DNA from: Thalassospira xiamenensis M-5 = DSM 17429 | GTDB lineage: Bacteria > Pseudomonadota > Alphaproteobacteria > Rhodospirillales > Thalassospiraceae | Direction: 5' to 3' | Length of the DNA: 64,000 nucleotides | NCBI RefSeq assembly: GCF_000300235.2 | Contig: NZ_CP004388.1 | Span: forward strand, 2,700,501 to 2,764,500 | Part shown: in pieces, positions 7,380 to 39,507 of the stretch | How the letters are laid out: each line of letters begins with the position of its first letter | Numbering within the stretch: the first letter of the stretch is position 1 | The notes under the pieces: generated by a model | Databases searched by the model: none | What the model saw: only the letters and a program-made list of their open reading frames with translations | What the model was told of the DNA's origin: nothing | Program-made: the position numbers and the translations under genes

Positions 7380-7599
7380 ATGACTTCCCTTGATTGACGT
7401 TACGGCATGAAGCGGCGCGACGCGTTATCTATGCCGGGGAACTACATAACGGTCAATGTGATATTTATGGTTTTGGTCGATCTTCCGGCGGCCTTGCGCA
7501 ATCTGTCCGATACAGTTGGGGATGGATAATAAAAAGAAGAATAAAGCACTTGCCAACCGGGGGGATTATCCGTATTTTCCGCGCCACAAAATGAATCGT

Positions 7600-7675
7600 G
7601 CTGATGTAGCTCAGCTGGTAGAGCGGCGCATTCGTAATGCGTAGGTCGTAGGTTCAAATCCTATCATCAGCACCA
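7600..7675 (+). tRNA. tRNA-Thr (anticodon CGT)
   Basis: A 76-nt cloverleaf: acceptor GCTGATG pairs with CATCAGC, the D-arm is GCTCAGCTGGTAGAGC, the anticodon loop TTCGTAA gives CGT, the T-loop is TTCAAAT, and discriminator A and CCA are encoded. It stands alone immediately before the R-body island. Confidence 0.97.
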
Positions 7676-7679
7676 CTAT

Positions 7680-7714
7680 AACCCCGTCGGGCGAACAGCC
7701 CTGCGGGGTTTTTT
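7680..7714 (+). terminator. Rho-independent terminator of tRNA-Thr
   Basis: AACCCCG and CGGGGTT arms, plus an inner GGG/CCC pair, are followed by a T run. It separates the tRNA from the promoter at 7749. Confidence 0.85.
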
Positions 7715-7748
7715 GTTGCCTTTCCACGGACGCGATTTGACGTTTTTT

Positions 7749-7773
7749 GTCACAACCTCCGGTGCTCCCCGTC
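7749..7773 (+). promoter_or_regulatory. ECF-type promoter P1 of the R-body regulon
   Basis: GTCACAA at 7749-7755, 14 bases, CGTC at 7770-7773. Identical spacing occurs in five more places in the island. The inferred transcription start is ~7780, giving a leader of ~90 bases before the 588-aa gene. Confidence 0.8.
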
Positions 7774-7872
7774 CTTTTGACATGTGAACCGTCGCAATCC
7801 TTGTGAAATCCGGTTCGGCGCAGGCGTGCACCCTCCGCAGCGTTTCGCAAGTGCAACCAGGGGATTGTCAGC

Positions 7873-9639
7873 ATGACCGACAAAGACCAACAGCCCAACA
7901 GCACCGAAAATGGCGGAAGCAATCCCGCCGCCACCAACGGCCCCAAAAGCCCGACCATCGATAACTGGCCGTGGGCCCATGTGCTGGGTTTCGACACGGC
8001 AAAGGAATGGGGTCTTGACGCCGTCATTCCCCGCCCGTCATCGGCCTCCCCGATCCCCGATCCGTCCAGTGGCGCGACCGGCGGCAACAATCCGGGGCCG
8101 CTCGATGGGCTATCGGGCCATACACCACTGCAAGGCCAGAATCTGATCGAATATGCCATGCAGAAAATCGAACAAGCCCTTGGCCAGCCGATACAGGCGG
8201 TCCCGCCACTGTCATCTTACAGCTACGACGAATACGGCAACCTGACCACAACGGCGGGCGCGACCGTACCGGCTCCGGCTCAGGCTCAGGCCCCGCAAAA
8301 CGCGGCACCGGAAACATCATCTACCGGCTCCCCCCCTACCGCTGCCGACACCCCCGACAGCGGAGACGACCGGGACGACGATCTCACCGACGAAGAAGTC
8401 CCCCCCCGCTTTCAGGATCACGACGATACCGTAACCACGCCAAGCCGCCCGACATCCGGCATGTCCGGTCCCACAGGCCCGCAATCCTATCGCGTTGACC
8501 TGATCCGTGATGACGGCCGTGTGACACGGCTCGAAGGCAGCGTGACGTATGGCGATCTTTATCGCCCGCTTCTGCCCGAGCTATCCGGCAATGCCCAAAA
8601 TGCCCAGACGCCGGACTGGTCGATCACACTTGATCAATTGCCCAACCCCGGCCCTACCGGCAGCGACACGGATGCCATTGTCACCGCACGGCTTGATGCC
8701 GCCGAAACCCCGGCTGATATCCAGCAATGGGCGCTATCGGTAGGACCACAAGATATCAACACCGCCCGGCTGGCACTTGATATCCCGGCAACCCTGCCGT
8801 CTCTGACACGGGCCAGCATCATCGGTGGATTACCGTCCAGCGAATGGCACATGGCCGCGGCAACACTGGCAGCGGGCGGCGTCAGTACGGACAACTCCGG
8901 CACTTCGATCCCGGACGCTGCCGAACCCGTTGCTCCGGCAAGCCTTGGCATGGATCAGCAACTCGGTACGATTGACAGCACGCAGGATCCGTTCATCGCC
9001 ACCCTGCGCATCACATCGGCCATCACCAGCATCCCGACCTCGATCCCGGTTCAACTGCAATATACAGGTGCTTTGCCCAGCCCGATCTTGCAGGGTGACG
9101 TCCCCCTCACGACCGAAACCAGCCTATCGCTTCGCATGCAGGTCATCGCCCCCAACGACGGTAAATCGGGCGCAACCCTTGTCGCGCTGATCCTGCGCGG
9201 GGCTGCGTCGGGCTTTTCGGTCACCGCACAACTGCGCGGCGATCACAAAATCTCGACCCCGACCGCGATGCTCGGCTGCATCGATCCGGGCCAGGATACC
9301 GAATGCCGCGCCGAAAGCATGATCGCCAATGCAACATCCAGCCTGCAAACCAGCCTGATCAGCATCACCGATACCCCGGACGATGACGAGCTTGCCGCCT
9401 ATGGGTTTGTGCTGCCCGCACCGTCCGGTAACGACAGCACCACCGACGCAACCCAGACCGACAAACCGGACAAAGGCACAAATATCGCCAAATCAGCCCC
9501 GGCGAAGCCAGCATCGGTAAAAGGCAAAGCCGCCATCACTGACAACACCAACAGCCCCCCCGATGCTGACAGCAATAACGGCGATACCGGCACTACCGCC
9601 GCCAACAGTCCCGGAAAACCGGACAAGGGAGCCTCCTGA
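7873..9639 (+). CDS. Unknown low-complexity protein, first gene of the R-body island
   Basis: 588 aa; I recognise no known domain. Residues 1-200 are rich in Pro, Gly, Asn, Ser and Thr, with an acidic stretch (DSGDDRDDDLTDEEVPPRF near 160-180). The middle (~205-510) has more ordinary composition and includes ESYRVDLIRDDGRVTRLEGSV-like beta-rich sequence starting at SYRVDLIRDDGRVTRLEG. The tail is disordered and Lys/Asn/Pro-rich. There is no signal peptide and no membrane segment. AGGGGA precedes the ATG. It is driven by the same type of promoter as the reb genes and is coupled by TGATG to the next gene. I infer an R-body accessory, scaffold or cargo protein; function unknown. Confidence 0.8.
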   Translation: MTDKDQQPNSTENGGSNPAATNGPKSPTIDNWPWAHVLGFDTAKEWGLDAVIPRPSSASPIPDPSSGATGGNNPGPLDGLSGHTPLQGQNLIEYAMQKIEQALGQPIQAVPPLSSYSYDEYGNLTTTAGATVPAPAQAQAPQNAAPETSSTGSPPTAADTPDSGDDRDDDLTDEEVPPRFQDHDDTVTTPSRPTSGMSGPTGPQSYRVDLIRDDGRVTRLEGSVTYGDLYRPLLPELSGNAQNAQTPDWSITLDQLPNPGPTGSDTDAIVTARLDAAETPADIQQWALSVGPQDINTARLALDIPATLPSLTRASIIGGLPSSEWHMAAATLAAGGVSTDNSGTSIPDAAEPVAPASLGMDQQLGTIDSTQDPFIATLRITSAITSIPTSIPVQLQYTGALPSPILQGDVPLTTETSLSLRMQVIAPNDGKSGATLVALILRGAASGFSVTAQLRGDHKISTPTAMLGCIDPGQDTECRAESMIANATSSLQTSLISITDTPDDDELAAYGFVLPAPSGNDSTTDATQTDKPDKGTNIAKSAPAKPASVKGKAAITDNTNSPPDADSNNGDTGTTAANSPGKPDKGAS

Positions 9640-10280
9640 TGACAAGCGGCCCGAACTTTCCCGGCGTCGAAACGGCAAGCAGTAAAAAGGATGCGGTAAA
9701 AAAGGCCTTCAATCAGGAATATCAGGCCACCATGAAAGCCATGGCGAATGCCGCGGACCGTGCGCGTGCGCAAGTTTTGAACCAGAAACTCGCCGCGGGA
9801 AGCCACGCACAATCAAGCCAAAGCACAAAAGCCGTCGCAACCGCCCCGAATGCACCGGGCACCAACAACGCGCCATCAACCCCGATCGAGCCGGGCGCAA
9901 TGGTCATGATCGAAATCGCCAATGAATTGCGCCGCATCATCGTCGCGGAAATTGACATGCGCATGAACCATCTGGCGGGACAGGTCGAACAGGCAATCGC
10001 ACAGTCAATTCCGCCTGTGGCATCAAATGCACCTTCCGATGCAAAACCCGCGGCCGCCCAGCCTGCCGGAAGCGAAACCGGCATTGCCCCACAAACGTCT
10101 CAACCAAATATTCCCGCCACGCCGCAAAGCAACGCGCAAAACCCAAACGCCGCAGCACCTCCCCAACCTACACCTTCTCCGGAAACCGCCCCTTCGGAAA
10201 ACACCCGGCCCACAGCACCACAAACTGCCAATGCCGGTTCCGAAAATCCACCAAACGCCGCCCCACCGGCGGATGGATGA
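9639..10280 (+). CDS. Unknown Ala/Pro-rich protein of the R-body island
   Basis: 213 aa. Its ATG shares a base with the previous stop (TGATG), with AAGGGAG upstream. Residues 1-60 are probably helical (KKAFNQEYQATMKAMANAAD). Around 85-125 there is a second helical block (AMVMIEIANELRRIIVAEID, then MRMNHLAGQVEQAIAQSI) that could form a coiled coil. The remaining ~90 residues are Pro/Ala/Gln-rich and disordered. No known family recognised. Its tight coupling to the 588-aa gene suggests that the two products act together. Role in R-body formation is inference from position and promoter. Confidence 0.78.
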   Translation: MTSGPNFPGVETASSKKDAVKKAFNQEYQATMKAMANAADRARAQVLNQKLAAGSHAQSSQSTKAVATAPNAPGTNNAPSTPIEPGAMVMIEIANELRRIIVAEIDMRMNHLAGQVEQAIAQSIPPVASNAPSDAKPAAAQPAGSETGIAPQTSQPNIPATPQSNAQNPNAAAPPQPTPSPETAPSENTRPTAPQTANAGSENPPNAAPPADG

Positions 10281-10453
10281 TTCGGCTTTTGCCAAAGGTT
10301 GCAAGTCCAACCTGCAACTCGATCCCGCAGGACGTGGGCCACGACCTAGGCGAGAAATCTGGAAAATATCTTTTAAAACAGAAGGTTAAAGGGTGTCATC
10401 TGCGACTTTCCCAGCCAAGAATTGCGCAACCTTAAATGGTATTTTTCTTTTTC

Positions 10454-10478
10454 TTCACAATTAAGACTGCGCGCCGTC
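10454..10478 (+). promoter_or_regulatory. ECF-type promoter of the sigma-factor gene
   Basis: TTCACAA at 10454-10460, 14 bases, CGTC at 10475-10478: one base from the GTCACAA of the other units. It implies autoregulation of the sigma gene. The rest of the 10281-10539 gap shows nothing else I can name. Confidence 0.75.
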
Positions 10479-10539
10479 ATAATAGTCGCGAGAGACCTAA
10501 ACAGCCTTTGGTTGTAATCTTTCTGAGGAGGGGTCCGAA

Positions 10540-11754
10540 GTGCAGTACGAAAAGAATACCGAACAGGGACAGACAGAACTATCGGAAAACGAAATCACGT
10601 TTGCCCAATCCCTAGACGATGCCTTGGAAAAGGCATTGGGGACAGGCGACAATGTCACATCAATCTGGTCGCACCTCAAAGATGAACAGCGCGCCAGACT
10701 GGCTGCGGACTACCTTGCCGCATTGAATACTGATTCTCGTAAAAGTAGTAACTTTGAAAACAATTCGTCAGCCTCACCCACCACGCCAGAGGCACCGCCA
10801 GAAGCACAGCAAGGAACAGCAGCAGCCCACACAGCCCCCCCGCAAACCGGGCCAGAAACCTCTGCCGTGCCGCGTGGTTATCCGGCGAATTTCAATCCAT
10901 TGGCCGGATTTCCGGGACTGGAACCATCGTCAAACGGCCCAAGCCCAACCGATATCATCGCCGGTAGTCTTGGCAATCCTGGCAGTCTTGCCGGGCTGGC
11001 CGGGTTGCAGGGAATGCCGGGAATGCCCGGCTCGCGAGGATCGGGCAACACCGGCAATCAGATCGACCAGATGCAACGATCCCTGCAGGATGCGATGTCG
11101 CTGCTGGGCAATCTCGGTTTCGAACAACCGGCTCCTTGCCAGCCCCTTGGCACCCCGCCAACACACGCCCCCCATCCACGAGCATGGCAATCCGATCCCC
11201 TCGATGATTCCGACCTTCCCGGTATGGAACCGGCCGCGCCAAATTTCTGGCCGCTCTGGATGGATCAACAGGACAGCCTTCTCAAGCAATGCCTGAAACT
11301 GATGTCTGGCAATATGGATGACGCGCAGGATGCACTGTCCGAAGCCATGCTAAAGGCATCGGTAAAGTTCGAGGATTCAATGGACGAAATCCGTAATCAC
11401 CGCGCCTGGCTGTCACGGATCGTGCACAATGCCTGCATTGATCTGCATCGGCAAAACCGCCGAAAGGCGGAATACAAGGAAGAAAACCACGGCACCGCGG
11501 ATGCCGCCCTGCCGCCGATTTCCGGTCGCAACGAACCCAGCCCCGAGGAATCCTTCCTTGCGACCGAAATGTTCGACCATCTTGAACGCGCCTTACGCGC
11601 CCTTCCTGAAAAACTGCGCAAGCCGCTTCTGATGCGATGCGTAGAAGACCGCAGCTACGACGATATCGCTGTCAATCTCGGACTAAGCAATTGTGCCGTG
11701 CGTAAACGCGTTCAGCTTGCCCGCGATCATCTGCGTGGCGCAGGCATCCAGTAA
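10540..11754 (+). CDS. Sigma-70 family (ECF-like) sigma factor with long N-terminal extension
   Basis: 404 aa from a GTG with a strong GAGGAGGGG upstream. Region 2 lies at about 236-305 (MDQQDSLLKQCLKLMSGNMD, DAQDALSEAMLKA, HRAWLSRIVHNACIDLHRQ). Region 4 lies at about 345-400 (LRALPEKLRKPLLMRCVED, then YDDIAVNLGLSNCAVRKRVQ, a helix-turn-helix). Ordinary ECF sigma factors are ~170-200 aa, so residues 1-235 are an extension: a helical start, a Pro/Ala linker, a Gly-Pro-Leu-Met-rich stretch (GLAGLQGMPGMPGSRGSGN) and more linker. No anti-sigma gene is adjacent; the extension may take that role. It probably recognises (G/T)TCACAA-N14-CGTC at six island promoters, including its own. Confidence 0.9.
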   Translation: MQYEKNTEQGQTELSENEITFAQSLDDALEKALGTGDNVTSIWSHLKDEQRARLAADYLAALNTDSRKSSNFENNSSASPTTPEAPPEAQQGTAAAHTAPPQTGPETSAVPRGYPANFNPLAGFPGLEPSSNGPSPTDIIAGSLGNPGSLAGLAGLQGMPGMPGSRGSGNTGNQIDQMQRSLQDAMSLLGNLGFEQPAPCQPLGTPPTHAPHPRAWQSDPLDDSDLPGMEPAAPNFWPLWMDQQDSLLKQCLKLMSGNMDDAQDALSEAMLKASVKFEDSMDEIRNHRAWLSRIVHNACIDLHRQNRRKAEYKEENHGTADAALPPISGRNEPSPEESFLATEMFDHLERALRALPEKLRKPLLMRCVEDRSYDDIAVNLGLSNCAVRKRVQLARDHLRGAGIQ

Positions 11755-11774
11755 CCGCACGTGAAACCTGTTTA

Positions 11775-11806
11775 ACGGGCAGAATGACAAATGCCATTCT
11801 GCCCGT
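11775..11806 (+). terminator. Perfect 12-bp hairpin after the sigma gene
   Basis: ACGGGCAGAATG (11775-11786) and CATTCTGCCCGT (11795-11806) are exact reverse complements around an 8-base loop. No T run follows, so it is either a weak terminator or an mRNA 3'-end stabiliser. Confidence 0.5.
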
Positions 11807-11888
11807 CTCAACGCCGGGCTTGAAAAAGATCCGGCCCGCAAAAGACTTACAGAAATCCCCTTGCTGGCAAAAAAAAATCATCCGTCCT

Positions 11889-11913
11889 GTCACAACCCCG
11901 AATTGCCAGCGTC
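11889..11913 (+). promoter_or_regulatory. ECF-type promoter P2 before first rebB gene
   Basis: GTCACAA at 11889-11895, 14 bases, CGTC at 11910-11913. The reb gene starts at 11986. Confidence 0.8.
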
Positions 11914-11985
11914 GATAGGGTGAATTCGGGACGGAGAAACCCCGTCAGGATTTCCACCGCAAGCAGCATACGAAGGAGTTTTGAA

Positions 11986-12309
11986 ATGGCGATTCCGACC
12001 CCGGTAAACGGTCAAATCACCGATGCCGTCACCCAGGCAAACGTCAAGGTGCTCGGTGATGCCCCGGCCATGGCTATGGGCTCGATCTTCCAGTCACTGG
12101 CCCATTCCACGGGCATTCTCTATGAAAATGCCGTCAGCGCCCAGCAGCAGCTTGGCATTTCTTCTCAGGCGGCAACCAACCAGGGTGTCATCCAGATCTA
12201 TTCGATCGACACCATGGCCGATGCCGTCGCGACCTCGAAAATTGCCCAGAGCGACGTCCCCGACAACATGCTTTCGCTTCTGACCACCCTTCAGGCCGTC
12301 AAAAGCTAA
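11986..12309 (+). CDS. RebB-family R-body protein, copy 1
   Basis: 107 aa from the ATG at 11986 (AAGGAG upstream). The family core is plain: QITDAVTQANVKVLGDAPAM (about 7-26), AMGSIFQSLAHS, YENAVSAQQQLGISSQAATN and GVIQIYSIDTMADAVAT. RebB-type proteins polymerise into the coiled ribbon of R-bodies, which unroll to disrupt membranes of a host or competitor. This is one of three long copies and is most like those at 12512 and 14084. It has its own promoter and a downstream hairpin, so it is a separate unit. Structural role follows from the family; R-body formation in this organism is inference. Confidence 0.93.
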   Translation: MAIPTPVNGQITDAVTQANVKVLGDAPAMAMGSIFQSLAHSTGILYENAVSAQQQLGISSQAATNQGVIQIYSIDTMADAVATSKIAQSDVPDNMLSLLTTLQAVKS

Positions 12310-12333
12310 GCCCCGTCCTCCAAGACCTCCCCG

Positions 12334-12367
12334 ATTGGGCGGCCCGTTTTCCGACCGGCCGCCCAAT
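12334..12367 (+). terminator. Hairpin after rebB copy 1
   Basis: ATTGGGCGGCC (12334-12344) and GGCCGCCCAAT (12357-12367) are exact reverse complements with a 12-base loop. The T content downstream is poor, so termination may be partial. Confidence 0.55.
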
Positions 12368-12410
12368 ATCGTTTCCCGGCAATTCCGCCCGCAGTTTTTG
12401 ACGGTTTGAC

Positions 12411-12435
12411 GTCACAAAGGCATATCCTCACCGTC
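12411..12435 (+). promoter_or_regulatory. ECF-type promoter P3 before second rebB gene
   Basis: GTCACAA at 12411-12417, 14 bases, CGTC at 12432-12435. ATCCTCACCGTCA around the -10 is shared with P4, suggesting duplication of promoter plus gene. Confidence 0.8.
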
Positions 12436-12511
12436 AAATGACTGATCGCCGCGCACCACGCGGAACGGGCCGGTTTCCGGCATATTTATCCAGGCAACCA
12501 GGAGACAGATT

Positions 12512-12847
12512 ATGGCTGATAATACCCCGGTCAATGGCATGATTACCGATGCAGTGACCCAGGCCAATGTCAAAGTACTGGGCGATGCACCGGCCATGGC
12601 CATGGGCTCGCTGTTTCAGTCGCTGGCACATTCCCACGGCATTCTTTACGAAAACGCCGTCAGCAACCAGCAGCAGGTCGGCATCTCGTCGCAGGCTGCA
12701 ACCAACCAGGGCGTCATTCAGGTCTATTCCGTCGACACCATGGCAGGCGCCGTGGCAACGCAGAAAATCGCAACCAGCGACGTTCCGGACAACATGCTTG
12801 CATTGCTGTCCGCCCTGAAGGCAACCACCGGCACCGCAGTGTCGTAA
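12512..12847 (+). CDS. RebB-family R-body protein, copy 2
   Basis: 111 aa; CAGGAGACAG precedes the ATG. It is nearly superimposable on copy 1: MITDAVTQANVKVLGDAPAM, AMGSLFQSLAHSHGILYEN, QVGISSQAATNQGVIQVYS, and a hydrophobic C-terminal helix DNMLALLSALKATTG. It is therefore a recent paralogue with the same presumed structural role. It is flanked by its own ECF-type promoter and a strong intrinsic terminator, so it can be expressed as a single-gene transcript. That would allow its dose to be set separately from the other subunits. Confidence 0.93.
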   Translation: MADNTPVNGMITDAVTQANVKVLGDAPAMAMGSLFQSLAHSHGILYENAVSNQQQVGISSQAATNQGVIQVYSVDTMAGAVATQKIATSDVPDNMLALLSALKATTGTAVS

Positions 12848-12875
12848 ACCTTCATTGGTTTCGCCGCCCGAACCG

Positions 12876-12908
12876 GCCCGGCATGCAAAAGCTTGCCGGG
12901 CTTTTTTT
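12876..12908 (+). terminator. Rho-independent terminator after rebB copy 2
   Basis: GCCCGGCA (12876-12883) and TGCCGGGC (12894-12901) form the stem, followed directly by seven T. The -35 of promoter P4 starts three bases further on. Confidence 0.88.
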
Positions 12909-12910
12909 GT

Positions 12911-12935
12911 GTCACAAATTCCGATCCTCACCGTC
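12911..12935 (+). promoter_or_regulatory. ECF-type promoter P4 before third reb gene
   Basis: GTCACAA at 12911-12917, 14 bases, CGTC at 12932-12935. It abuts the preceding terminator. Confidence 0.8.
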
Positions 12936-12973
12936 ATTGCGATGTAGTTCACGCGCCAGCCAAGGAGACCTCG

Positions 12974-13273
12974 ATGGCACCGGCAAATACCGACCCGTCC
13001 GACAACAATTCCGACGCAACCTCCGTCGCAGACGCGGTGGAAAATTTGCAGGATCAGGTATCCCATCAGATCAGTGACGCTGTCAGTCTGGTAAATGTTG
13101 GCACCCTTGGTGTCGGCCCGGCCTATGCCACCCTGCAATCCATACTGGCTCAATCACAGGCACAGGGTGTTTTGATGGCCAACATGGTTTCCGGTCAGCG
13201 GCAACTATCCATGACCGGCATGGCCACCCTGACCAAAAGCATCGAACAGATGATGTCGCGTCCTAACCGATAA
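12974..13273 (+). CDS. RebB-family protein, divergent copy 3
   Basis: 99 aa from the ATG at 12974 (AAGGAGACCTCG upstream). The first ~35 residues are hydrophilic (Asn/Asp/Ser-rich). The RebB core then follows in weaker form: QISDAVSLVNVGTLGVGPAYA, and SQAQGVLMANMVSGQRQLSM. It resembles the next gene (copy 4) in the QAQGVLxANMV block more than copies 1 and 2. It starts a transcription unit that probably runs through copies 4 and 5, since no promoter motif precedes those. The role is presumably structural or a polymerisation-modulating subunit. Confidence 0.85.
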   Translation: MAPANTDPSDNNSDATSVADAVENLQDQVSHQISDAVSLVNVGTLGVGPAYATLQSILAQSQAQGVLMANMVSGQRQLSMTGMATLTKSIEQMMSRPNR

Positions 13274-13284
13274 GGATCAAAACG

Positions 13285-13530
13285 ATGAGCAACCCGCGCG
13301 AAGTCGACGAACAGATCACCGATGGCGTGACACAGACCAATACCACCGTCATCGGCTCCGCACCCGCCATGGGAACCATGCAGACTTACCTGTCGCAGGC
13401 CCAGGCACAGGGTGTGCTGTTTGCAAACATGGTCAATGAACAGCAACAGCTTGCCGTCGCCAGTCTGGCGACCACCATGGAATGCGCCCGCAATACGCTG
13501 GCGATCGGGGACAAAGGCCCAAAGTCCTAA
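13285..13530 (+). CDS. RebB-family protein, short copy 4
   Basis: 81 aa, starting 11 bp after copy 3 with TAAGGAT upstream. The core is QITDGVTQTNTTVIGSAPAM, with SQAQAQGVLFANMVNEQQQL. It lacks the C-terminal segment found in the 107-111 aa copies. It shares the QAQGVL(F/M)ANMV block with copy 3, so the two form a subfamily. Co-transcribed with copy 3. Confidence 0.85.
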   Translation: MSNPREVDEQITDGVTQTNTTVIGSAPAMGTMQTYLSQAQAQGVLFANMVNEQQQLAVASLATTMECARNTLAIGDKGPKS

Positions 13531-13542
13531 GGGGGGATAATA

Positions 13543-13694
13543 ATGGGACAGCAAAGCGCCCCCCCGACATCAAGAGCGCACCGCCTCCCGCCCCCAAAAT
13601 ACCGGAAGACCCGAACAGCAATATCGAACTGACCGACGACGAACTTAAACGCCAGCAGGACGAATACGAAAGACAGAGACAGGCCGGACAATAA
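13543..13694 (+). pseudogene. Small R-body-island gene interrupted at a C7 tract
   Basis: A strong AAGGGGGG lies before the ATG at 13543, but that frame stops after 30 codons. One more C in the C7 run at 13559-13565 would give a ~50-residue protein ending PNSNIELTDDELKRQQDEYE and a short basic tail, with the stop at 13694. The downstream frame is open and reads like a real, charged helical protein. Options are a genuine frameshift mutation, a slippage-prone (phase-variable) tract, programmed frameshifting, or a sequencing error. No family recognised. Confidence 0.5.
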
Positions 13695-13765
13695 CGGCAC
13701 TTTAACCGGCTCCGTCGGTTCTGACCCGACCTGCAGACAAACCTTCAAGACAAAGGCATGACGTC

Positions 13766-13990
13766 ATGAGCGATATCGTCAATCCGCAAATCACCGATGC
13801 CGTGACTCAGACCAACGTCAAGGTGCTGGGCGAAAGCCCGGCACAGGCGGTATCGATCGCCCTGCAATCGCATTCCCATTCAACAGGCCTGGCCATGGAA
13901 AACGCCACCCTGACGCAGGGAAACATGCAACAGGTCGCCAATACCGCAACCTCAAAACTGGTGGCCATGATCACAGCCCAGGCGGGTTGA
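13766..13990 (+). CDS. RebB-family protein, short copy 5
   Basis: 74 aa; AAAGGCATGACGTC precedes the ATG. Core QITDAVTQTNVKVLGESPAQ, then AVSIALQSHSHSTGLAMENA and a short C-terminus (ATSKLVAMITAQAG). It groups with the short copy at 14467 (GE(S/A)PAQA instead of GDAPAMA). It lies 71 bp after the interrupted small gene with no ECF-type promoter of its own, so it is probably the last gene of the P4 unit. Confidence 0.9.
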   Translation: MSDIVNPQITDAVTQTNVKVLGESPAQAVSIALQSHSHSTGLAMENATLTQGNMQQVANTATSKLVAMITAQAG

Positions 13991-14016
13991 TAAAAAGGTC
14001 ATCATTCAGGATTTTT

Positions 14017-14041
14017 GTCACAAAGATCAATCATCTGCGTC
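14017..14041 (+). promoter_or_regulatory. ECF-type promoter P5 before rebB copy 6
   Basis: GTCACAA at 14017-14023, 14 bases, CGTC at 14038-14041. It overlaps no coding sequence; the ATG follows at 14084. Confidence 0.8.
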
Positions 14042-14083
14042 AAAACGGGTACGGTCATCGTGACCGCCAAATCGGAGGAAGAA

Positions 14084-14407
14084 ATGGCTATTCCAACCCC
14101 AGTGAACGGTCAGATCACAGATGCGGTGACCCAGACATCGGTCAGCGTTCTCGGCTCGGCCCCGGCGAATGCCATGGGCATGATCTATCAAAGTGCCGCG
14201 CATTCGACATCCATCCTGTTCCAGAACGCTATCCAGGCCCAGCAACAGGCCTCGATGTGCTCGCAGGCCGCGACCAATATGGGTGTGATGCAGCTTTACT
14301 CGGTCAATACAATGGCCGGCGCGCAGGCAACAACCAAGCTGTCGCGATCCGACAACAGCAACACACTTCTGACCCTTTTGGTCATTTTGGCAGCAACTCG
14401 CCGGTAG
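14084..14407 (+). CDS. RebB-family R-body protein, copy 6
   Basis: 107 aa from the ATG at 14084 (GGAGGAAGAA upstream). The opening MAIPTPVNGQITDAVTQ is the same as copy 1. Then SVSVLGSAPANAMGMIYQSA, FQNAIQAQQQASMCSQAATN and GVMQLYSVNTMAGAQAT. It is the third long copy. A single Cys (MCSQAATN) distinguishes it from copies 1 and 2. The first gene of the P5 unit, which probably continues through the next two genes. Confidence 0.93.
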   Translation: MAIPTPVNGQITDAVTQTSVSVLGSAPANAMGMIYQSAAHSTSILFQNAIQAQQQASMCSQAATNMGVMQLYSVNTMAGAQATTKLSRSDNSNTLLTLLVILAATRR

Positions 14408-14466
14408 GCAGCATTCGGATGTCACGCGCCGTGCGTGTTATCCGGAAATTTCAGTGAGGGCGTGAC

Positions 14467-14724
14467 ATGGCAGACAACACCCCGGTAAATTCCCAGATTA
14501 CGGACGCGGTCACGCAGACCAACGTCAAGGTTCTGGGCGAGGCTCCGGCACAGGCAATGGGGCTCGTGTATCAGACGATGGCACATTCCATCAGTCTATC
14601 GATGCAGAACGCCATGCAAACCCAGGGCGGACTGCAACAGATCGGCAATGCCGTAACCTCCAGTGCGTGCAAAATGATTCTCGACAGCTCCGGTGGCGGC
14701 ATGGGTGGCGGCGGCAAATCCTGA
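14467..14724 (+). CDS. RebB-family protein, short copy 7
   Basis: 85 aa; GTGAGGGCGTGAC precedes the ATG. Core QITDAVTQTNVKVLGEAPAQ, AMGLVYQTMAHSISLSMQNA, and a glycine-rich end (GGGMGGGGKS). It resembles copy 5 in the GEAPAQA variant and in lacking the long C-terminal block. The Gly tail is absent from other copies and could mediate contacts or flexibility in the ribbon; that is a guess. Confidence 0.9.
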   Translation: MADNTPVNSQITDAVTQTNVKVLGEAPAQAMGLVYQTMAHSISLSMQNAMQTQGGLQQIGNAVTSSACKMILDSSGGGMGGGGKS

Positions 14725-14813
14725 CGCCGCCAACATGATTTCCCACGCCTTAAACGTCCGGCAACTTTGCGCCAAGCTCCTGAAACCGACCTGTTAACGC
14801 GATGAGGCCCGTC

Positions 14814-15380
14814 ATGGCTGACGAAAACGAAAATCCCCCAAAGGACACCCCGCCCGCTGGTGGAAATCCCGCCGATGAACAGGGTGCCGCCGATCCCGAA
14901 AAAGCCGGAGACAAAACCTCCCCTGCGGCCGATGCCCAGGGTGGCGCTGGTGGCGGCAAAGCTGCCAGCGGCGACACTCCGCCCGCGAATGGTGGCGCTG
15001 CTGGCGGAGGAGGAGGAGGCGCAAACAACACACCGCTCAGCACCGCCCTTAACCCGCAAATCGTTCAGGCCGTCGGCACCACCAATCACGCCGTACTGAA
15101 CGGGGCCGGTCCGGGCGCCAACGGGATCGCCTATCAGAAGGTCGCGCAGGCCGCCGCCTACGCCGTACAGGACAGCACCGATTACATGCGCAACATCATG
15201 TCGATGGCGTCTGCCACAACCGGTGTCGCGCTGCAAAAGATGCTGGTGGAAAAAACAACCGATCCCTATGCCGATATCATCAAGGCGGCAACACAGGCCG
15301 TCACCGATGCCCAGCAAACATTTACCAATGTCGGCACGGCATCAAGCGGTGTGGTCAAGGATTTCGACAGTATGGCCTAA
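14814..15380 (+). CDS. RebB-like protein with Gly/Pro-rich N-terminal extension, copy 8
   Basis: 188 aa from the ATG at 14814, preferred because GAGG lies six bases before it; an upstream ATG at 14802 has no ribosome site. Residues 1-78 are Pro/Gly/Ala/Asp-rich and disordered, ending in GGAAGGGGGGANN. The remainder carries a remote RebB core (NPQIVQAVGTTNHAVLNGAG, then AAAYAVQDSTDYMRNIMSMA) and a further ~50-residue helical tail (DIIKAATQAVTDAQQTFTNV). It is the most divergent copy and may be a capping or anchoring subunit. It ends the island; the next gene converges on it. Confidence 0.82.
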   Translation: MADENENPPKDTPPAGGNPADEQGAADPEKAGDKTSPAADAQGGAGGGKAASGDTPPANGGAAGGGGGGANNTPLSTALNPQIVQAVGTTNHAVLNGAGPGANGIAYQKVAQAAAYAVQDSTDYMRNIMSMASATTGVALQKMLVEKTTDPYADIIKAATQAVTDAQQTFTNVGTASSGVVKDFDSMA

Positions 15381-15404
15381 TGGCCTGATGATCGCCAGGC
15401 GGGA

Positions 15405-16709
15405 TCACCCCGCCTGCATCAACTGGATACGCTCGCACGCTTCGGTAAAGTCCGGCGCAAACAGTTTCAGGCTCAGACCCGTGCCATGAAGCTCGAAGGC
15501 ACCCATTTCTTCCGTCGGACAGGAAATGAACTTCGCCACCTGATGACTGACCAGAACCCGTTTGCCAAGCTGCTTGGTCAACTGTTCGATCCGGGCGGCT
15601 TCGTTGGCCGCCTGCCCGATCACGGTAAAATCGACCCGGTCAGGCACGCCGACATTGCCGTAAATCACATCACCAACATGCATGCCAAGCCCGTAATCAA
15701 AGGCCGGCAATCCGGTTTCTTCGCGCTGGCGGTTAAGCTGATCGATATTAAGCTGCGCCTCGGCTGCTGCGTAAACCGCAGCCGTACAGGCCTGTTCCAG
15801 ATCCTGCTCATCCTCGCGGATCGGGAAAATCGCCAATGTCGCATCCCCGATATAGCGCAAGACCTGCCCGCCATGCTTCAGGACCGCACCGGCCGTCGCG
15901 GCAAAGAAATCATTCATTTCACCTAGAAAAGCATCATCCCCGACACTGGCGGCAACCGATGTCGAATTGCGCATATCGGAAAACCAGATCACTGCCCGCG
16001 TCTTGGTACTGTCGCCCAGCTTGATCTGCCCGTCGCGCACCCGATGCCCGGCATCCGAACCCAGATAGGTTTCAAGGATCGTCTTGGTTTCTTCGTGCAT
16101 GATGCGCATTTTGCACGACACGGCAAAACGGCGCTGGATCGATGACAGGATTGCCAGATCCTCGTCGGTAAAACCGCTGGGCCGACGCGTCATATAGGTC
16201 ATGAAGATACGGTTCGTACCCAGCGTGCTGTCGCGGTCCGTGGTAAAGGGCGTCATCAGCGCCAGATAATCCGTGCCGCCGGATTTGCGGAAAGTCTGCA
16301 AAACATTGAAATCAAGGATCGCCCCCGGCCCGATCAGATGGCGACGCATGAAGGTGACATCGTTATCGGACATCCACTTCATCGGGCTATCAAGCCAGTC
16401 GGGGTTCTTTTCGCGTACATCAAGATGCAGCGACCGTTCAACCCGGCCCTCATCCTTGGACCAGATATAGGAAACGCCTTCATAAAGCGGATGCAGGGTC
16501 TTGAAACCAACCATGACACGTTCGATCGGAATGCCCGCGGCAACAAGCCGCGACACCATGCCTTCGACAATCGCATCAATATCGGTATCGTCGAGTGCGC
16601 GCTCCATCAGCCAGTCATTGACCGCCCGCACAAAGCCACCGCCAGACAGGGCACTGTTCGTACCCGGCAGCGACGTGACATTGTTGTTGGACTTCGTGTT
16701 TTCCGGCAT
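15405..16709 (-). CDS. Class III adenylate/guanylate cyclase with N-terminal regulatory domain
   Basis: 434 aa. The C-terminal half is the cyclase homology domain: AVIWFSDMRNSTSVA (metal-binding Asp) near 235, YIGDATLAIFPI near 285, DFTVIGQAANEAARIEQL near 385. The N-terminal ~200 residues contain a conserved-looking block (HPLYEGVSYIWSKDEGRVE) found in front of other alphaproteobacterial cyclases; I cannot name its ligand. No membrane segment, so cytosolic. It converges on the R-body island with 24 bp between stops. A hairpin with GGCGGG/CCCGCC arms at about 15397-15413 may end both units. Single gene; whether cAMP links to the island is open. Confidence 0.9.
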   Translation of the reverse strand: MPENTKSNNNVTSLPGTNSALSGGGFVRAVNDWLMERALDDTDIDAIVEGMVSRLVAAGIPIERVMVGFKTLHPLYEGVSYIWSKDEGRVERSLHLDVREKNPDWLDSPMKWMSDNDVTFMRRHLIGPGAILDFNVLQTFRKSGGTDYLALMTPFTTDRDSTLGTNRIFMTYMTRRPSGFTDEDLAILSSIQRRFAVSCKMRIMHEETKTILETYLGSDAGHRVRDGQIKLGDSTKTRAVIWFSDMRNSTSVAASVGDDAFLGEMNDFFAATAGAVLKHGGQVLRYIGDATLAIFPIREDEQDLEQACTAAVYAAAEAQLNIDQLNRQREETGLPAFDYGLGMHVGDVIYGNVGVPDRVDFTVIGQAANEAARIEQLTKQLGKRVLVSHQVAKFISCPTEEMGAFELHGTGLSLKLFAPDFTEACERIQLMQAG

Positions 16710-16875
16710 GATGGGCTCCGTCCGATTCTTAAGCGACTATGACATGAATATGACATCGCATAAATGGGACAGGCTTGTGATTTCGCAATCGCAAAATCAC
16801 AAAAACTGCACTTACCGATATTATTCCTGACAAATTTCGGTCAATCTAGCGAAACCTTTTGCCCAAGACCCCGGA

Positions 16876-18420
16876 TCACTGCGCAATCGGCGGAAGGTAA
16901 ATCCGCGCCAGAAGCCCGCCAGACGGCGCATCTTCCAGATAAATCTCGCCGCCATGCGCCCGGATCGCGGTGCGGGCAATCGCCAGACCAAGGCCAATTC
17001 CACCCGTTTCACGATTGCGCGAGGATTCAAGCCGGAAGAACGGCTCGAACACCTGATCGCGCTGATCGGGTGGAATTCCCGGCCCGTCATCACTGACTTC
17101 GATCCACATGCCACCATCATCGGCGGGCTTCAACGATACGTCGACATGATCGCCGAATGTCAGGGCATTTGACATCAGATTGCCCATCGCCCGCTTGATC
17201 GAAAGCGGACGGCATGGATAAACCCGTGGTTCGCCATCACCCACGAACCGGATCGGTCGCCCGGTTTCGGCAAGGTCTTCGACCGCGGCCTCGATCAGGG
17301 CGGCAATATCGATCTTGCGGGTCGCCTCGTTCGCGGTTTCTTCGCGCGCAAAGGTCATGGCCGCTTCGACCATCTGTTCCATTTCATTCAATGTCTCGAT
17401 GATCCGAGACCGGTTTTCCGCATCCTCGACAAATTCCGCCCGCAGCCGAAGAGACGTGATCGGAGTGCGCAAATCGTGCGAAATCGCGGCCAGCATCCGG
17501 GTGCGATCCTCGACAAAACGTTTCAGCCTTGCGGTCATGCGGTTGAACGCCTTGGCTGCACGGCGGATTTCAAGCGGGCCATCTTCGGGCACCGGTTCGG
17601 GATAATCACCACGCCCCACCCGGTCGGCGGCCTGTGCCAGAACCGCCCAGGACCGTGTCATGCGACGCGCCAGGAAAAACGCGATGATCCCGATCAGGAC
17701 CGCCGAAATAACAATACGCAGGATATTTTGCAAAACCGCACGCGGCGGCGGTGCAACACCATTGATCCGCGCTTCCAGCCAGACAACAGGCTGTAGACTT
17801 TCAGCCCCCGCCGATCCGGCAGCGTTTACCGTCGCCCCCACCGGGAAGATCGGCACACTGATCTGCATTAATGGTGCGGCAACACAGTCAAGGTGATCAA
17901 AGAAACGCGGCCCGTGATGTCCGTCGCGAACAAAGTCATCCTTGCGCCATTTCTTGTCGCGATCATCATCATCGTCATCGTCACCATGCTTTTCGTGTTT
18001 CTTTTTCTCGCGCTCCTCAACCGCCTCACAATCATCCTCCGACAGGATATGCACTCGCGCGGGCACCGCGGGACCGTCAAGCGCCTGATTAAGCCGCTCG
18101 CTCAGCGTGTAACTGATATCAGACATCGGCAGGCTGTTATCGGGCTTGTCCGCCAGACGCATGATGCTTTGCGGCGACTGGCCGACCTTCAGGACATCAC
18201 GCCAGTTTTCCGATGGGGTTGCCGCCAGAATGCGCGAAATGGCCGCAACGCGCGCCAATGCACCGCCACGCCGCTCGCTTAACAACGCATCGCGCCGTTC
18301 TTCGGCCAAAAGCAATCCTAACACCACATGGGTCAGAACCACGGCACCAAGGATCAGCAACACCAACTGCCCGACAAGGGTTTCTGGCCATAAACGGGAA
18401 ATGAAACCGCGCAGTTTCAT
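16876..18420 (-). CDS. Sensor histidine kinase (EnvZ-like) with Asp/Lys/His-rich periplasmic loop
   Basis: 514 aa from the ATG at 18420, which overlaps the response-regulator stop (ATGA). TM1 is about 14-38 and TM2 about 232-251. The ~190-residue periplasmic part holds a highly charged run with seven consecutive Asp at 147-153 and several His and Lys, bracketed by Cys131 and Cys179. A HAMP domain follows, then the H-box AAISHDLRTPITS with His315, and the N, G1 and G2 boxes (LMSNAL, DDGPGIPPDQRD, GIGLGLAI). The charged loop looks suited to sensing a metal cation, polyamine or pH. Signal unknown. Confidence 0.93.
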   Translation of the reverse strand: MKLRGFISRLWPETLVGQLVLLILGAVVLTHVVLGLLLAEERRDALLSERRGGALARVAAISRILAATPSENWRDVLKVGQSPQSIMRLADKPDNSLPMSDISYTLSERLNQALDGPAVPARVHILSEDDCEAVEEREKKKHEKHGDDDDDDDRDKKWRKDDFVRDGHHGPRFFDHLDCVAAPLMQISVPIFPVGATVNAAGSAGAESLQPVVWLEARINGVAPPPRAVLQNILRIVISAVLIGIIAFFLARRMTRSWAVLAQAADRVGRGDYPEPVPEDGPLEIRRAAKAFNRMTARLKRFVEDRTRMLAAISHDLRTPITSLRLRAEFVEDAENRSRIIETLNEMEQMVEAAMTFAREETANEATRKIDIAALIEAAVEDLAETGRPIRFVGDGEPRVYPCRPLSIKRAMGNLMSNALTFGDHVDVSLKPADDGGMWIEVSDDGPGIPPDQRDQVFEPFFRLESSRNRETGGIGLGLAIARTAIRAHGGEIYLEDAPSGGLLARIYLPPIAQ

Positions 18421-24463: not shown

Positions 24464-24607
24464 TTTCAAGCGATGAATTGTGACAATTTATAGCCAATAG
24501 CAATCAATACCCTTATTTACCGAAGCCAAAACCTCAACACTCGATAAAAATTTCGATTTTGAAAATTGACAACTCTGGGATCAAATCCCATGAGCCGAAA
24601 CGAAAAA

Positions 24608-38995: not shown

Positions 38996-39056
38996 AAATA
39001 TCCGATCACAAATATCGGATTACTCCGTCTACCTGCTGACACTTGTCAGCAACTCC

Positions 39057-39108: not shown

Positions 39109-39507
39109 TCATTGGCCCAGATAATCGCTATCCGCCACTTTTTCCAGCCAGTCGACCGCCGATCCGTTGACGGATTCCGCAATCGCGATATGGGTCATCG
39201 CGGTTTTGTCGGTAGCTCCGTGCCAGTGCTTTTCACCCGGTTCGAACCAGACGATATCGCCGGGGCGGATTTCCTCGCGCGGTCCGCCTTCGCGCTGCGC
39301 CCAGCCAAGGCCACTTGTGATGATCACGGTCTGGCCCAGCGGATGGGTATGCCATGCGGTGCGCGCGCCCGGTTCAAACGTCACAATGGCCCCGCCGACA
39401 CGGGCGGGATCGGCGGTCTGAAACGGGCTATCGATCCTGACCGCACCCGTGAAGTAATCCGGCGATCCTTTGGCCGATGGTTTTGATGCGTTGCGCAGGA
39501 TGTTCAT
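39109..39507 (-). CDS. Small cupin-domain protein
   Basis: 132 aa, a single cupin barrel. Motif 1 [20 protein letters not shown] (about 50-69) supplies two His and the later Glu is replaced by Gln/Thr; motif 2 [18 protein letters not shown] (about 84-101) supplies the last His. It resembles the mandelonitrile lyase-like and YqfZ-type cupins often seen as metal-dependent small enzymes or scavengers. GAGGATCACC precedes the ATG. No clear partner; substrate unknown. Confidence 0.85.

Follow-up and report, generated by a model that had tools for sequence, protein, structure and literature searches.

A probable promoter family of the R-body island of Thalassospira and the sigma factor that may read it

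R-bodies are protein ribbons, coiled up and able to unroll, and their gene island in the marine bacterium Thalassospira xiamenensis M-5 raises a simple question: which factor switches its genes on, and do they answer to one signal? To judge from the studies consulted, most of what is understood about how cells regulate R-bodies comes from Azorhizobium and Pseudomonas (PMC5527310, PMC8322103). In this work, we analyse a stretch of 64,000 nucleotides (nt) of contig NZ_CP004388.1 (positions 2,700,501 to 2,764,500), hereafter the window, in which an island running from about 7749 to 15380 carries two genes of no clear family (orfA and orfB), a gene for a sigma factor of the extracytoplasmic function (ECF) type, seven genes with the RebB domain (PF11747) and a distant Reb-like gene. 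A first-pass annotation, made from the letters of the window, had noticed six copies of a two-part element in this island and had proposed that they form a self-contained regulon of the island's own sigma factor. We consider it very probable, mainly from a comparison of related loci, that the six sites (P1 to P6) are indeed promoters read by this factor. RNA polymerase carrying it would read all six, the sigma family would recognise TCACA(A) as the -35 element and CGTC as the -10 element, and orfA-orfB, the sigma gene and the RebB genes would be switched on as one unit.

Six sites and their counterparts in other genomes

The pattern KTCACAA-N14-CGTC (K standing for G or T, N for any base) matches the window six times, always on the + strand and exactly at the coordinates first given for it, while 100 shuffles of the window gave 0.14 matches on average and never more than 2. 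Each site stands in front of an island gene, as had been claimed, the distance from CGTC to the likely start codon being 99, 61, 72, 76, 38 and 42 nt by hand count for P1 to P6, respectively. The assertion that the 64 kilobases (kb) hold no further match stands for KTCACAA but falls if the first base may be A, which gives a seventh match at 39005-39029. An A in this position occurs in the sites of relatives; the match itself has a + strand gene on one side and a convergent - strand gene on the other, and since its spacer does not recur in the matches from three other genomes (G120, G142 and G096), it is probably due to chance. It is followed by an apparent GC-rich hairpin with a run of T, which could be chance or belong to a small transcript. 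Likewise, the isolated GTCACAA heptamers reported near 39378 and 45664 are present, at 39380 and 45665, but a third, at 24478 on the - strand, had been missed.

Taken alone, the window is no more than suggestive. When all dyads of a 6-mer and a 4-mer are counted, TCACAA-N14-CGTC scores 7 on the + strand. A second dyad attains this value as well, and the top score in each of 30 shuffled windows was 5 in 23 cases and 6 in seven. The dyad is thus only modestly unusual. In our judgement, it is the comparison between genomes that settles the promoter question.

For this comparison, the motif was sought within 330 nt upstream of each RebB domain, and it is convenient to count the spacer from TCACA, so that the N14 of the initial pattern becomes N15. 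A scan of named genome contigs returned 61 loci with relatives of the sigma factor, belonging to Thalassospira, Magnetovibrio, Tistlia, Nisaea, Kordiimonas, Oceanibacterium, Sneathiella, six myxobacterial loci, two cyanobacterial records and several records less precisely named. Two weak rows were dropped before counting (G469 from the class search and G741 from the phylum search), and four Sneathiella-type loci (L117 and L129-L131; to judge by its length, L204 is the same contig as L117) were kept apart from the main count. The RebB loci without a detected sigma homologue number 19, of which 13 come from genomes searched whole (E up to 1e-10; some of them incomplete) and six (L140-L145) were examined within about 17 kb only. 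A spacer of 16, absent from the initial annotation, was adopted after the dyad counts in relatives described below; this preceded the fetching of loci L172-L205, but L109 and L113 had already been seen.

In Thalassospira, 29 loci were examined, five of them without RebB, and the exact pattern lies upstream of RebB in all of the 24 others. At the level of open reading frames (ORFs), TCACA-N15-CGTC precedes 103 of 189 RebB ORFs and the N16 form none, and 13 other spacings between 9 and 22 give five hits altogether. The Magnetovibrio family shows the exact pattern at 4/6 loci and the N15 form at 5/6 (21/44 ORFs), the sixth, L108, lying at a contig edge. Among 36 other sigma-bearing loci, 24 have RebB; the exact pattern is found at four of these, N15 at seven and N16 at 22, so that one or the other spacing is present at 23/24 (40/170 ORFs), and the Sneathiella-type loci kept apart have N16 in 4/4. 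Judged from these sites, Thalassospira and Magnetovibrio keep to a single spacing, to which distant relatives mostly add one nucleotide. Taking the main count as a whole, TCACA-N15/16-CGTC accompanies RebB in 52 of 54 sigma-bearing loci, against none of the 19 loci (0/79 ORFs) without a detected sigma gene, which supports the proposal that these are promoters of the island's own factor.

The orientation of the sites points the same way. Among 403 RebB ORFs of sigma-bearing loci, the motif runs with the gene at 164 and in reverse at three, its CGTC lying 42-156 nt (median 80.5) from the RebB domain. It persists across loci in which the gene order has changed and is retained in Magnetovibrio, where reb and sigma genes occupy opposite strands. 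De novo dyad counting also backs the motif, which it does not prove: TCACA-N15-CGTC comes out on top in Magnetovibrio-family regions (21/42) and TCACA-N16-CGTC is found in 6/27 Sneathiella-type regions, simple shuffles reaching a maximum of 3-5.

Several observations weigh against this reading and have to be set beside it. There is no motif directly upstream of 239 of the 403 RebB ORFs, although operons may account for many of them. Outside Thalassospira and Magnetovibrio, where the exact pattern and the N15 form stop at the 4/24 and 7/24 given above, the fit depends on a spacing adopted later. The dyad counts are not clean either, since six dyads score 7 of 27 in the Sneathiella-type regions, above TCACA-N16-CGTC, and other dyads reach 14/31 in clusters without sigma, high scores which arise because paralogues share sequence. 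Two incomplete genomes (L120 and L132, 81% and 59% complete) have the N15 form before reb and no sigma gene that we found. Finally, the sigma gene occurs without its presumed targets: five Thalassospira genomes keep it and have no RebB match, and 12 of the 36 other sigma loci show no RebB in the sequence retrieved for them (some of these sit at the end of a contig, and the reb genes of L200 lie about 17 kb off), including 5/6 myxobacterial and both cyanobacterial loci. In one of these stretches, from Corallococcus (L178, at 7546-8870 and 16341-17011), motif-like sites stand before a SET-domain gene and a class I chitinase-domain gene, for which chance is a likely explanation given the high G+C content.

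The reach of the pattern across the whole genome was also considered, as the first-pass annotation had called for. Fourteen strict matches were found, six in the island and eight elsewhere. Estimates of chance disagree: scaling the window shuffles predicts about 10 matches genome-wide, with which the eight outside sites agree, whereas the reversed pattern gives 2 in all, which they exceed, so that the term self-contained is likely but not proven. Six of the eight overlap mechanically listed ORFs of at least 134 amino acids (aa), one falls between genes, next to one that looks terminase-like by eye, and one faces a convergent gene; none is convincing as a promoter. With the looser DTCACAA (D being A, G or T), 12 genomes have 12-23 matches each, against 1-6 in the reversed control. 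At this stringency, the regulon likely does not reach beyond the island, and further targets are possible.

The features on which the argument rests are collected in Table 1. On the assignments given there, it is plausible that every island gene adjoins a site or sits in an operon behind one, the least certain case being reb5, which starts 235 nt after reb4. The seven RebB genes are the only matches to PF11747 above its cut-off in the whole genome.

Table 1. Promoter sites and genes of the R-body island (positions in the window)
Feature	Coordinates	Strand	Description	Basis
P1	7749..7773	+	GTCACAA-N14-CGTC, putative promoter before orfA-orfB	pattern match; sites before orfA in relatives
P2	10454..10478	+	TTCACAA-N14-CGTC, putative promoter before sigma gene (autoregulation)	pattern match; genus comparison
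Sigma70-like promoter	10454..10483	+	TTCACA-N18-CATAAT, 10/12 match, overlapping P2	promoter scan; -10-like hexamer kept in genus
P3	11889..11913	+	putative promoter before reb1	pattern match
P4	12411..12435	+	putative promoter before reb2	pattern match
P5	12911..12935	+	putative promoter before reb3 (plus reb4 and reb5 if cotranscribed)	pattern match
P6	14017..14041	+	putative promoter before reb6-reb7-distant Reb-like gene	pattern match
orfA	7873..9639	+	588 aa, no clear family; among loci searched only in Thalassospira	
orfB	9639..10280	+	213 aa, without clear family; 1-nt overlap of its start with orfA stop	
Sigma gene	10540..11754	+	ECF-type sigma factor, 404 aa, GTG start	Pfam and NCBIfam matches
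reb1	11986..12309	+	RebB	PF11747, 99 bits
reb2	12512..12847	+	RebB	PF11747, 96 bits
reb3	12974..13273	+	RebB	PF11747, 42 bits
reb4	13285..13530	+	RebB	PF11747, 50 bits
reb5	13766..13990	+	RebB; without strict promoter match of its own	PF11747, 67 bits
reb6	14084..14407	+	RebB	PF11747, 87 bits
reb7	14467..14724	+	RebB	PF11747, 86.6 bits
Distant Reb-like gene	14802..15380	+	192 aa, distant Reb relative	homologues in other reb clusters; profile weakly matches RebB proteins

The sigma factor and what else might read the sites

The protein fits the ECF type, having sigma regions 2 and 4 (Pfam Sigma70_r2 at residues 247-308, Sigma70_r4_2 at 348-398) and no match to a region 1 or region 3 model, and it scores 68.2 bits against the NCBIfam sigma70-ECF model (cut-off 42.9). 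The two domains are preceded by some 240 aa of extension at the N-terminus, and six residues remain after the region 4 match. In the region-4 helix, R388, K389, R390 and Q392 are invariant across 31 aligned sequences. The claims that the window has one sigma gene, placed in the island, and that this gene carries one of the promoters also proved right, the first for PF08281, the sigma family searched, and the second with P2. In the N-terminal extension (10540-11240), a motif like SPxDIIAxSL was observed in 20 of the 24 reb-positive Thalassospira loci and in Magnetovibrio-family homologues. The pattern has no match in the five reb-less Thalassospira genomes, in the other 4/24 reb-positive loci or in any of L172-L205, and because these reb-positive and L172-L205 loci fail it, it was dropped.

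ECF sigma factors usually, though not universally, have the gene of a cognate anti-sigma factor nearby. Here, neither orfA nor orfB has a family match above cut-off, so an unrecognised one is possible, and the scan of 10 island proteins found no family of regulators other than sigma, no COE-type family and no Crp-like or cyclic-nucleotide-binding protein.

Could the dyad instead be the binding site of an activator, like that of RebR at the reb operon of Azorhizobium? Activators and repressors do run R-body operons elsewhere, as described for RebR and PraR in the accessible part of PMC5527310 and for RcgA, which acts beside FecI2 in Pseudomonas aeruginosa, in that of PMC8322103. However, the dyad is asymmetric and follows the direction of the gene in the 164:3 ratio reported above, its two halves are spaced like -35 and -10 elements, it accompanies the sigma gene, and the scanned island proteins offer no candidate regulator besides sigma. 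An activator site thus seems quite improbable. We give slightly less credit still to the idea that these are true promoters whose reader is a different ECF-type sigma factor of the genome, which has 21 matches to PF08281, some of them perhaps not sigma factors. The likeness of the sites to the ECF41 promoter (TGTCACA-n16-CGTC in the part of PMC3426412 accessible to us), when the island factor is not an ECF41 sigma, speaks for it. Against it, in the 13 RebB genomes without a detected homologue of the island factor the motif is likewise missing from the reb genes. Moreover, TCACA-N15-CGTC stands before the sigma gene too in 29/29 Thalassospira loci (27 by script, two by eye).

The RebB genes being paralogues, the motif might also be a by-product of the tandem duplication of reb genes together with their upstream DNA. 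We hold this to be the least probable of all, since the spacers between the two elements look unrelated by eye, and the motif is also found before orfA and the sigma gene and survives in genera with rearranged clusters. The island's own ECF-type sigma factor remains the best candidate to read P1 to P6.

How does this factor relate to known ones? The first-pass annotation had likened its -35 element to that of ECF41, and this holds for the promoter but not for the protein. In the accessible text of PMC3426412, ECF41 promoters have TGTCACA at -35, CGTC at -10 and a spacer of 16 +/- 1, and the targets adjoin the sigma gene. The six sites share TCACA-N15-CGTC, although only some have the full TGTCACA, and the spacer after TGTCACA is 15 here and mostly 16 in distant relatives. 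The same text gives ECF41 factors a WLPEP linker between regions 2 and 4 and a C-terminal extension of about 100 aa. The Thalassospira factor has no WLPEP in its linker (by eye) and no C-terminal extension; it carries the long extension at its N-terminus instead, and, as seen above, no COE-type family was found among the scanned proteins. Membership of ECF41 is therefore rejected, and we file the protein as an ECF-type sigma factor with an apparently ECF41-like promoter.

In R-body control, two systems come closest. In P. aeruginosa PA14, according to the accessible part of PMC8322103, the sigma factor FecI2 of the reb cluster is required for expression from a reb promoter. The likeness lies in a sigma gene within the reb cluster, compared here by description and not by sequence; the difference is that a second regulator, RcgA, is also needed there, and that part names no motif for the promoter. 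The Group 2 reb synteny (Raymann 2013) includes a sigma-factor protein, HP2.3, and a cyclic-nucleotide regulator, HP2.4, and the sigma factor was proposed to regulate reb (PMC3583457, as far as accessible); the word promoter is absent from the accessible text. A sigma gene, perhaps that of HP2.3 itself, lies beside reb genes here too, whereas no HP2.4-type regulator was found among the 10 proteins scanned. A survey of 2026 lists Thalassospira among the reb-rich genera and sets aside non-homologous neighbours, including sigma factors (PMC13430693, accessible part). In a literature search that mostly left out subscription papers, we found no report of a TCACA-N15/16-CGTC promoter for reb genes. 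On a megaplasmid of Ruegeria pomeroyi DSS-3 (L207, 2542-8345), a reb cluster holds, besides a Crp/Fnr gene, a distant sigma relative that scores 59 bits with the sigma profile, and TCACG-N15-CGTC, with one mismatch, was seen by eye shortly before one reb gene start.

The promoter of the sigma gene

P2 differs from the five other sites in starting with T and not G, and its CGTC runs directly into ATAAT. A general promoter scan of 7400-15500 independently ranked TTCACA-N18-CATAAT as the best place. The hexamer made of the last C of CGTC and the next five bases matches TATAAT at 5/6 positions in 22 of 27 Thalassospira sigma promoters and at 4/6 in the other five, and CATAAT is also present at the two that the script classed otherwise (L078 and L087). 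In 104 reb promoters, of which 74 are distinct, this hexamer agrees with TATAAT at 0-3 positions. The -35 element discriminates little: it agrees with TTGACA at 5/6 positions in 21 of the 27 sigma promoters and at 4/6 in six (those that start with ATCACA), and at 4/6 in 94 and 5/6 in 10 reb promoters.

This overlap, which is a new observation, suggests a seeded, self-amplifying switch. On the strength of the conserved hexamer, we find it rather probable that the Thalassospira sigma promoter is dual, read by both sigma70 and the island factor. The housekeeping sigma70 would read CATAAT and provide a low seed of the island factor, which would then amplify itself until the R-body genes fire as an all-or-none switch; that the circuit really is all-or-none is doubtful enough for us to offer it as a tentative idea. 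Two results speak against extending the scheme. The motif precedes the sigma gene in 12 of 39 loci examined for it, none of them titled Sneathiella, and because of this autoregulation is not universal. Of the loci that carry such a site in front of the sigma gene, 11 are from outside Thalassospira; no overlapping CATAAT was found there, the best nearby hexamer matching at 2-4/6. The stochastic expression of reb in P. aeruginosa, seen in 0.26% of cells (accessible part of PMC8322103), would fit with a positive loop started from a seed, though that is another organism with an extra regulator.

Islands with and without reb genes

The island is flanked by tRNA-Thr (7600-7675) just before it and by a cyclase-domain gene (15405-16709) on the opposite strand after it. 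The cyclase-domain gene, on the - strand here, borders the locus in 29/29 Thalassospira loci, whether reb genes are present or not. In the five reb-less genomes (L096, L098, L099, L100 and L101), the sigma gene lies between tRNA-Thr and the cyclase gene, and its promoter is a conserved block, the DNA further upstream not being conserved. Four of these genomes have a further site upstream, which may be a remnant of the orfA promoter. The ratio of nonsynonymous to synonymous substitution rates (dN/dS) over the last 172 sigma codons is 0.04-0.09 in 9 of the 10 pairs of these genomes, the tenth being saturated, and 0.06-0.08 in the only three pairs with dS < 1. The sigma gene is therefore still under purifying selection and must have another role there.

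The targets that such a role implies did not emerge: with DTCACAW-N14-CGTC (W being A or T), the five genomes have 15-20 sites each, against 3-9 in the control, and the genome-wide search gave no convincing one. A TTCACAT-N14-CGTC site is alike in all five; it was not counted, overlapping the last codons of an ohr-like gene. This gene was named by eye, its context was seen in 3/5 genomes (L220, L223 and L226, near 1501), and coding constraint is a possible explanation.

At the level of the order, 36 of 297 genomes have a strong sigma homologue (>165 bits) and 39 have RebB: 31 have both, five sigma only, eight RebB only and 253 neither, these genomes being related by descent and not 297 independent trials. 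All this may outline a branch within the ECF sigma factors that is linked to R-body genes, with ECF41-like promoters and without the ECF41 domain, extending from Alphaproteobacteria to at least one myxobacterium. In Thalassospira, a self-amplifying switch seeded by sigma70 would commit single cells to making R-bodies, and in one set of species of this genus the sigma factor would have outlived the R-body genes and would serve other targets. We rate this broad reading at somewhat below an even chance, the 12 of 36 other sigma loci without RebB in the fetched stretch weighing against it.

With a defined promoter and a likely sigma factor, the targets of R-body control would become predictable from sequence in several genera. 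The seed-and-amplify logic, if true, could explain why few cells make R-bodies.

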